Of a stretch of DNA of 64,000 nucleotides, positions 20,166-27,262 are shown one piece after another. The notes under the pieces were generated by a model that saw only the letters and a list, made by a program, of their open reading frames with translations, did no database searches and was not told where the DNA came from. A program made the translations under genes and the position numbers. Every line of letters begins with the position of its first letter. Positions within the stretch are counted from its first letter, which is position 1. Origin of the DNA: Deinococci bacterium (GTDB lineage Bacteria > Deinococcota > Deinococci > Deinococcales > Trueperaceae); the NCBI GenBank assembly GCA_030149325.1, contig JASBRS010000002.1:1-64000 (forward strand), written 5' to 3'.

Positions 20166-20250
20166 CCTTGTACGGGGTTGGGATACGTCCTGGACGCCGA
20201 TGTGTGAGGTTGCTCCGACCCGGGGCTTGACAGCGTACAAGGTCCGTACT
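20166..20250. promoter_or_regulatory. Candidate LitR/CarH operator sites
   Basis: GTAC-starting units at 20235 and 20246 are spaced by exactly 11 bases and overlap the -35/-10 spacer of the regulator promoter. An upstream CCTTGTAC (20166-20173) is the exact reverse complement of GTACAAGG (20235-20242). CarH tetramers are known to bind direct repeats of 11 bases. Binding here is inferred. Confidence 0.5.
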
Positions 20251-20255
20251 ATGCT
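20227..20255 (+). promoter_or_regulatory. Consensus promoter of the B12 photoreceptor gene
   Basis: TTGACA at 20227-20232, 17-base spacer, TATGCT at 20250-20255. One of the two strongest promoters in the window by sequence. It leaves a leader of about 40 bases with a GGAG Shine-Dalgarno. Confidence 0.85.
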
Positions 20256-20301: not shown

Positions 20302-21198
20302 ATGAGCGAGATCGGCAAGTACACCGTGAACGAGGTCGTCGAGCGAACGGACATCGCGGCCGGCACCCTGCGCCAGTGGGAGCGACGCTACGGCGTGCCG
20401 CACCCCGAGCGCTCGCCTTCGGGCTACCGCCTGTACAGCGACGGCGACCTCAGGGCCATCGAGGCCATGAAGCGCCACATCGCCGACGGCGTACCGGCCT
20501 CACGGGCGGCCGAGCTGGTCGCACGGGACGCCCCGAGCGAAGGGGCGCCGCTGCCCGCCGAGGCGCTGCGAGCCCGTCTGGTCGACGCCTTCCTCCGCCT
20601 CGACGAGCAGGCTGCGGAGCGGGCGCTGAGCGAGGCCCACGCCCTGCACTCGGTCGAGACGGTGGTGGCGGAGGTGATCGCTCCGGCCATGGTCGAGATC
20701 GGCGACCTGTGGCATGAAGGCCGCATCGAGACCACCACCGAGCACGTCGCGTCGAGCTTCGTCCAGGGCTGGCTGCGGCAGCTCCTGCGGCTCGCACCGC
20801 GGTCGATCGAGTCCCACCCCATCGTGGTGGCCTGTGCGCCGTTGGACCAGCACCAGCTCGCACCGCTGATGCTGGCCGTGCTGCTGCGGCGTGCCGGGCA
20901 TGCCGTGGTGTTCGTCGGTGCCGACACGCCGATCGAGGACCTGCGCAGCATGGCGCGGTCGCTCGACGCCCGCGCGGTGATGGTCGCCGCTTCCACGCCG
21001 CCCGCCCTCGAGGCGCTCGAGGAGCGCCGCGAGCTGCTCGACGGCATCGCCCCGCTGCTGGTGTTCGGCGGTGCGGCCTTCGACCAGGACCCCAGCCGCG
21101 CCAGCCGGCTCGGCGGGCACTACCTCGCCGACGACGTCGGCGAGGCGGTCCAGCGCTTCGACGATCTCGTCGCTCGCACCCGGGGGACCGAAGCATGA
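20302..21198 (+). CDS. litR: MerR-type B12-dependent light-responsive repressor (LitR/CarH-like)
   Basis: 298-residue regulator. Residues 1-75 are a MerR winged helix (IAAGTLRQWERRYGVPHPERS); residues about 85-165 a four-helix B12-cap; residues about 170-295 a Rossmann-like cobalamin domain. In Thermus CarH, adenosylcobalamin-bound tetramers repress in the dark and fall apart in light. The diagnostic residues are here: W137-H138, then E147-H148 at the same spacing as CarH W131-H132 and E141-H142, and lower-ligand H184 in DQH. ATG 20302 has GGAG upstream. Followed by an LdrP-like gene. Expected to respond to light. Confidence 0.9.
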   Translation: MSEIGKYTVNEVVERTDIAAGTLRQWERRYGVPHPERSPSGYRLYSDGDLRAIEAMKRHIADGVPASRAAELVARDAPSEGAPLPAEALRARLVDAFLRLDEQAAERALSEAHALHSVETVVAEVIAPAMVEIGDLWHEGRIETTTEHVASSFVQGWLRQLLRLAPRSIESHPIVVACAPLDQHQLAPLMLAVLLRRAGHAVVFVGADTPIEDLRSMARSLDARAVMVAASTPPALEALEERRELLDGIAPLLVFGGAAFDQDPSRASRLGGHYLADDVGEAVQRFDDLVARTRGTEA

Positions 21199-24523: not shown

Positions 24524-27037
<2,514 letters not shown>

Positions 27038-27107
27038 GATCTCTCCAGTCTACGGGGCGTGCCGGGACGCCCCGGAACGCGCCATCCTCGGCTCCGAACA
27101 AAGCAAC

Positions 27108-27131
27108 GGCCCCGGTCTGCGGACCGGGGCC
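27108..27131 (-). terminator. Attenuator-like hairpin upstream of leuS
   Basis: Perfect 10-base stem: GGCCCCGGTC at 27108-27117 and its complement at 27122-27131, with a 4-base loop. On the minus strand it is followed by GTTGCTTTGTT, a U-rich tail; the other side has none. It lies 28 bases after the leader ORF stop and 71 bases before leuS. Confidence 0.75.
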
Positions 27132-27158
27132 GACGGCGTGCCCTGACGGTATCGGGGC

Positions 27159-27227
27159 TCAGCCGATCGGCCTCCCGAGGGCTAGCTGCTCGCTGGGGTA
27201 CGCGTGCACGACGCGATGCGTCACCAT
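27159..27227 (-). CDS. Putative 22-residue leader peptide of leuS
   Basis: Frame from ATG 27227 to TGA 27159-27161. ATG starts seven bases after a TATGCT -10, so it should be leaderless. Residues 15-17 are Leu-Ala-Leu encoded by CTA GCC CTC; CTA is scarce in this GC-rich sequence. No known homologue. The arrangement promoter, short ORF, terminator hairpin, tRNA synthetase resembles transcription attenuation. Confidence 0.6.
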   Translation of the reverse strand: MVTHRVVHAYPSEQLALGRPIG

Positions 27228-27233
27228 GGGCGA

Positions 27234-27262
27234 AGCATAGCCGCTGACCACGGAGGTGTCAA
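27234..27262 (-). promoter_or_regulatory. Consensus promoter of the leuS leader
   Basis: TTGACA at 27262-27257, 17-base spacer, TATGCT at 27239-27234, on the minus strand. The -35 overlaps the stop codon of the upstream acetyltransferase gene. Confidence 0.85.

Follow-up and report, generated by a model that had tools for sequence, protein, structure and literature searches.

The locus lies on the minus strand of a 64,000-nt stretch of DNA, hereafter the window (positions 1 to 64,000 of contig JASBRS010000002.1), from a member of the Trueperaceae whose assembly (GCA_030149325.1) comprises 3.0 Mb in 102 contigs. Compared by LeuS, its closest named relatives are bacteria of the Trueperaceae, Truepera among them, in agreement with a place in the Deinococcota. 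Read in the direction of transcription, it consists of a sigma-70-like promoter (P1), a short open reading frame, a stem-loop with a T-rich tail, and leuS, the gene for leucyl-tRNA synthetase (Table 1). Upstream, a GNAT-like acetyltransferase gene, the identity of which was checked by profile, is oriented in the same direction as leuS and ends at 27259, 128 nt ahead of the hairpin; its stop codon overlaps the -35 element of P1 in the minus-strand reading. An earlier note on this DNA, made from the letters alone, had described P1 as TTGACA-17-TATGCT, an ATG seven bases further on, and a 22-residue frame containing Leu-Ala-Leu as CTA GCC CTC. The promoter proved exact to the base, six nucleotides separate its -10 element from the ATG, which begins at the seventh, and the frame reads as described, with CTC as codon 17 (27179-27177). 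A Shine-Dalgarno sequence is absent from the leader. The hairpin and U-rich tail that had been proposed upstream of leuS are likewise present, the stem having eleven pairs and not the ten originally given. Up to the terminator, the leader RNA measures about 130 nt, and the leader stop codon is separated from the leuS ATG (27037) by 121 nt which include that terminator.

Table 1. Features of the leuS upstream region and of similar leaders in the source genome (unprefixed positions refer to the window)
Feature	Position	Strand	Details and basis
Promoter P1	27234..27262	-	-35 TTGACA 27262-27257, spacer 17 nt, -10 TATGCT 27239-27234
Leader peptide ORF MVTHRVVHAYPSEQLALGRPIG	27159..27227	-	ATG 27227-27225, 22 sense codons, TGA 27161-27159
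Putative regulatory codon CTA (Leu, codon 15)	27183..27185	-	in-frame CTA in 65/65 leaders
Predicted antiterminator hairpin GGAGGCCGATCGGCTGAGCCC...GGGC.CGCCGTCGGCCCC	27126..27175	-	predicted pairing and cross-genus covariation
Intrinsic terminator stem-loop CGGCCCCGGTC-CGCA-GACCGGGGCCG	27107..27132	-	11 pairs, 27132-27122 / 27117-27107
Terminator T-rich tail TTGCTTTGTT	27097..27106	-	sequence reading
Candidate second -10 TAGACT (P2)	27047..27052	-	would give a terminator-independent leuS transcript
GGAGAG, Shine-Dalgarno-like site of leuS	27041..27046	-	sequence reading
leuS, leucyl-tRNA synthetase, 837 aa, putative controlled gene	24524..27037	-	TIGR00396 (leuS_bact), 1009 bits, cut-off 548
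pheS leader MRFRADSAFTR with TTT, then terminator	L226, G000:C76:9334-		own genome
aspS (aspartate--tRNA(Asn) ligase-type) leader MMRMSASSFADDNSRARWLGA, Asp-Asp-Asn GAC GAC AAT, then terminator	L230, G000:C102:4605-		own genome
leuC leader MRIRRRLRVINLWQSVLLHGGGVVDV (..LWQSVLLHG.., CTG CTA) with terminator	L219 / L291, G000:C8:27863-		own genome
Leaderless ORF MTFQPRGGDAVDDGYGYVRPNPGTLVAAG (..DGYGY..; TAT, TAC, TTC codons) before DAHP synthase gene	L228, G000:C100:12185-	-	

Within 16 kb, two strict sigma-70-like promoter matches were found, P1 among them, while 0.4 were expected from shuffled sequences. Hexamers and spacing identical to those of P1 also occur at window positions 20227-20255 on the plus strand, where they drive the gene of a MerR-like regulator that begins near 20303. 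The hairpin is the sole terminator-like match in the 16 kb; as shuffling leads to an expectation of 2.8 such matches, the bare hairpin is statistically unremarkable. Judged from the sequences compared below, it is conservation in relatives, rather than single-site statistics, that lifts the locus above chance. No Rfam family, the T-box included, reaches its gathering score across the leuS upstream region, as the earlier note had expected for the T-box, and no match was obtained in ten leuS loci of relatives.

Conservation of the leader and its CTA codon

A class-wide search identified leuS in 100 of 111 genomes and yielded 102 upstream regions, second copies included, from 29 genera in five families; a phylum-wide search returned these five families again, without Deinococcaceae (Deinococcus). 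Leaders were called by rules blind to leucine: a TAnnnT hexamer, a gap of 6-7 nt, an ATG or GTG, 5-45 codons, and a stop codon followed within 5-50 nt by a terminator that had been identified independently. All codon statistics rest on the leaders called in this way, and an initial set scored by CTA was excluded from them. The procedure returned 65 leaders in 23 genera, and each of the 65 contains an in-frame CTA. With one leader taken per genus, CTA accounts for 32 of 48 Leu codons where 1.25 would be expected (binomial p 3e-39, genera treated as independent). The codon is otherwise rare, amounting to 3 of 2384 codons and 3 of 228 Leu codons (1.3%) in six coding sequences of the window, and to 2.6% of Leu codons within leuS bodies. 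Many leaders have just one Leu codon. The peptides differ by family, examples being MSPARLIP, MTRTGLPPA, MQWFIHLELP, MIRSGLPRLGALLE and MINFSQRLLLAGGPGR besides that of the window; thus, it is the codon that is kept and not the peptide. Both the terminator and the antiterminator described below are retained in relatives, the former with its T-run mostly at a constant 20-30 nt past the leader stop, so that the conserved hairpin and the conserved short frame with Leu codons for which the earlier note had proposed to look are both found.

A TTGAC -35 element accompanies every leader of families f1, f2 and f5 and no leader of f3 and f4; in Trueperaceae, 16 of 16 geometry-called leaders have it. 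A small number of genera, g12 and g16 among them, lack the leader and may have lost it or never had it; most of them keep a -10 element adjoining leuS. At 9-10 nt ahead of leuS, 21 of 36 Trueperaceae loci (11 of 22 with a leader and 10 of 14 without) have a -10-like site corresponding to the TAGACT that was proposed earlier as a second promoter; this site lies outside the conserved core. In a scan of Chloroflexi, Acidimicrobiia and other groups (66 leuS loci), the geometry rules called leaders at a single locus, where nested frames in an AT-rich region were judged to be due to chance. One assembly (G021) carries two different leuS genes (L017 and L141), each with a CTA leader of its own (MFLQVSNEGFSPLRLGGPRL and MFLQVSNLFLLGGPRP); these could be paralogues or the result of a mixed bin.

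Antiterminator pairing and folding

The end of the leader ORF, stop codon included, shows complementarity to the sequence just before and into the left arm of the terminator, and the 3' strand of the predicted antiterminator takes up the first 7 nt of that arm. The alternative pairing of a GGaGGCC stretch with the left arm, which the earlier note had put forward, is thus real and longer than claimed (27175-27126). The two strands pair much more strongly when both come from one genus than when they come from different genera, with -21.4 versus -16.2 kcal/mol among 12 Trueperaceae genera and -18.3 versus -13.9 kcal/mol among 24 genera (permutation p = 5e-5 in both cases, the floor for 20000 permutations), indicating that the two strands co-vary. 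A control with shuffled ORF ends gave a mean z of -1.65, with z<-1.64 in only 12 of 24 genera and p 0.013 for the window; this control bars antiterminator starts less than 9 nt from CTA, and its lower bound is thus built in.

When the window RNA was folded before synthesis of the right arm, energies of -28 to -32 kcal/mol were obtained with CUA in the A site and of -9.9 kcal/mol with the ribosome at the stop codon, and a shift in the same direction was seen in 23 of 24 genera. In nearly all Thermus-like genomes (genus g20 of family f4; this assignment and that of g25 as Meiothermus-like are presumptive), the left arm is sequestered to 0.9-1.0 at a CTA stall and to 0.1-0.5 at the stop codon; in many of them sequestration is low again without a ribosome, because GGCCAGGC pairs with GCCTGGCC. 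For Trueperaceae taken singly, left-arm sequestration was no better than in shuffles. This score is ill-defined for the family because the antiterminator there engages no more than the base of the arm, and the cross-pairing test was used instead. Equilibrium folding of the complete leader revealed no switch in most genomes: P(terminator) stays high when stalled (0.92 in the window), and a drop of more than 0.2 occurs in only 13 of 68 cases. Such folding fails to discriminate since the terminator is invariably more stable, and the mechanism would thus need co-transcriptional folding. The folding z-score of the whole leader is only -1.6. Of the mutually exclusive folds that the earlier note had anticipated, the shift is seen before the right arm is made and not in the whole leader at equilibrium. 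By the geometry of the modeled structures, the predicted antiterminator is mutually exclusive with the terminator, a CUA stall corresponding to antitermination and a ribosome at the stop codon to termination.

Similar leaders elsewhere in the genome

A search of the source genome for the promoter-plus-ATG pattern returned 13 places, and the reversed pattern none. Besides leuS, the genes preceded by short ORFs at these places include pheS, an aspS of the aspartate--tRNA(Asn) ligase type, leuC and a DAHP synthase gene (Table 1). Counted by eye, with 5-8 nt permitted between -10 and start and without a separate chance control, pheS leaders occur in 24 of 26 Trueperaceae loci (L231-L256), 22 of them with TTT and usually as ..ASPF.. 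with one TTT; aspS leaders number 19 among the relatives (L261-L282), AAT together with an Asp codon being present in 18 of the 19 and Asp-Asp-Asn in many; and leuC leaders with CTA were found in about 22 of 30 loci, Thermus-like and Meiothermus-like genomes included. In the coding sequences of the window, TTT is used for none of 72 Phe codons and AAT for none of 51 Asn codons. That codons for Asp and for Asn occur together ahead of an aspS of the tRNA(Asn) type suggests control by the charging of two tRNAs at once. At the DAHP synthase gene, the leaderless ORF is followed by no clear T-run terminator, and control might thus be translational.

Sub-threshold T-box matches (best E 1e-6) were observed directly ahead of genes resembling ileS and valS in the same genome (G000:C28:31596-31866, minus strand, and G000:C79:21841-22109, plus strand). 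The ileS leader opens with a leaderless ORF of seven codons, MQGRRTL (L222).

Discussion

Based on the conservation of the leader and the covariation of the antiterminator, we propose that the leuS leader is a leader-peptide-dependent, ribosome-mediated transcription attenuator, a reading to which we assign a probability of about 0.9. RNA polymerase would start at P1, at or adjoining the leader ATG, and a ribosome would translate the leaderless frame. With well-charged Leu-tRNA, the ribosome would pass CUA, reach the stop codon and cover the 5' strand of the antiterminator, upon which the terminator would form and transcription would end before leuS. If charged Leu-tRNA is scarce, owing to too little leucine or LeuRS, the ribosome would stall at CUA; the antiterminator would then form first and take the base of the left arm of the terminator, allowing transcription to enter leuS. 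The direction of the response, a stall leading to read-through, is predicted here by the logic of classical attenuation, and P2 may supply a basal leuS transcript. Through the rare CTA, a lack of charged leucine tRNA would probably be sensed by ribosome stalling, and leuS would be switched on. The leucine-dependent attenuation suggested in the earlier note thus appears largely right, with the refinement that the sensing codon would be CTA specifically rather than the Leu-Ala-Leu run. In its geometry, the 6-nt gap between -10 and ATG agrees with the spacing of 6-7 nt typical of leaderless transcripts in the phylum: in Deinococcus radiodurans, a TANNNT -10 motif, found phylum-wide, is typically located about 6-7 bp before the ORF and drives leaderless transcripts (PMC12340547; leuS, leader peptides and attenuation are unmentioned there).

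The features might also be read in other ways. The hairpin could be the ordinary terminator of the GNAT gene, with leuS transcribed from P2 alone and the short ORF being a chance frame: the GNAT gene is codirectional and ends 128 nt before the hairpin, a good -10 element adjoins leuS, and GC-rich hairpins are common. However, a GNAT gene precedes leuS in none of 66 relatives, while the leader, its CTA (65 of 65) and the terminator persist, the antiterminator covaries, and in several relatives the long upstream open frame is only on the opposite strand. As the GNAT gene is located upstream of leuS only in the source genome, the hairpin is more than just the terminator of that gene; conservation refutes this reading as a full explanation, and we consider it very unlikely. 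Equally, a leader gene close to a structural gene may feed it ribosomes (PMC4833913), and the ORF could act by translational coupling or reinitiation on leuS translation only, in the absence of termination control. The 121 nt and the terminator between leader stop and leuS ATG, together with the Shine-Dalgarno-like sequence of leuS itself, render this extremely improbable.

The remaining alternatives concern the signal. A T-box riboswitch, in which uncharged tRNA-Leu would be bound by the leader RNA itself, might be considered in view of the weak matches upstream of ileS and valS; yet leuS has no such match (the RF00230 search excludes it there), the leader is only about 130 nt long up to the terminator, and codon bias in a translated frame would be unexpected for a T-box, so that we attach next to no likelihood to it. 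The leader might, on the other hand, respond to slow decoding of a rare codon, to the abundance of tRNA-Leu(UAG), as a sensor of growth rate or tRNA supply, or to the nascent peptide, instead of to leucine or LeuRS supply. What is conserved is the single codon CTA and not leucine in general, many leaders have a single Leu codon, and the sensitivity of the Salmonella leu attenuator is set by its CUA codons (PMC1183508). Against this, the downstream genes match the amino acid (CTA with leuS and leuC, TTT with pheS, GAC/GAT plus AAT with aspS), and the leader peptides vary between families, nascent-peptide arrest being unlikely because they are not conserved. We therefore regard sensing of something other than leucine or LeuRS supply as improbable, and favor attenuation by charged Leu-tRNA.

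The mechanism as such is known. The leu leader of Salmonella and E. coli, which is translated from a Shine-Dalgarno site, also combines CUA codons with an antiterminator/terminator switch, but governs leucine biosynthesis genes and not leuS. CUA codons are the control codons there, and their change to CUG lowers sensitivity (cited in PMC1183508). Attenuators of leuS were predicted for Streptomyces in 2005 (Seliverstov et al., PMC1262725), and a leaderless leuS leader, LeuL2 (MRAVRLLLSEPR), emerged from RNA-seq of S. lividans (PMC8079986). These share with the locus described here a short ORF with Leu codons and antiterminator and terminator hairpins before leuS, and, in S. lividans, the leaderless start; however, they belong to another phylum, the single invariant CTA is particular to the leaders described here, and no obvious sequence is shared with LeuL2. 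Control of a synthetase gene by a leader peptide is also exerted by the gamma-proteobacterial pheST attenuator (pheM), named as an analogue in PMC1262725, although by Phe codons and in a different phylum. Leader peptides without a 5' UTR are listed for amino-acid operons of Corynebacterium and Streptomyces (S. lividans table, PMC8079986), mostly biosynthesis operons and again outside this phylum. T-box riboswitches (RF00230) similarly govern synthetase genes via tRNA charging, with weak matches here at ileS and valS, but lack a leader peptide and have no match at leuS. In the literature we found no earlier report of such leaders for Deinococcota, Lopatovskaya et al. 2010 and de Groot et al. 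2014 being outside that comparison. What appears to be new is the occurrence in this phylum, the fact that a single rare codon is invariant, and the presence of companion leaders at pheS, aspS and leuC.

Considering these leaders jointly, we find it rather likely that leaderless attenuators are used as a set throughout the Deinococcota, with each synthetase or biosynthesis gene following a very short ORF that contains a codon hardly used in the genome (CUA for leuS and leuC, UUU for pheS), including a two-amino-acid Asp/Asn (AAU) sensor at a non-discriminating-type aspartate--tRNA(Asn) ligase. The putative leuS attenuator is ordinary in kind and notable in breadth, as it recurs across the Thermus/Truepera branch. 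The Thermus ribosome is a structural work-horse, and the Thermus-like form, an 8-codon leader of about 77 nt overall that lacks a Shine-Dalgarno sequence and would act in many genomes via one rare codon, would provide a compact and genetically tractable attenuator. Two questions become testable with it: how leaderless initiation keeps ribosome and RNA polymerase synchronized, and why rare codons are chosen by attenuators.
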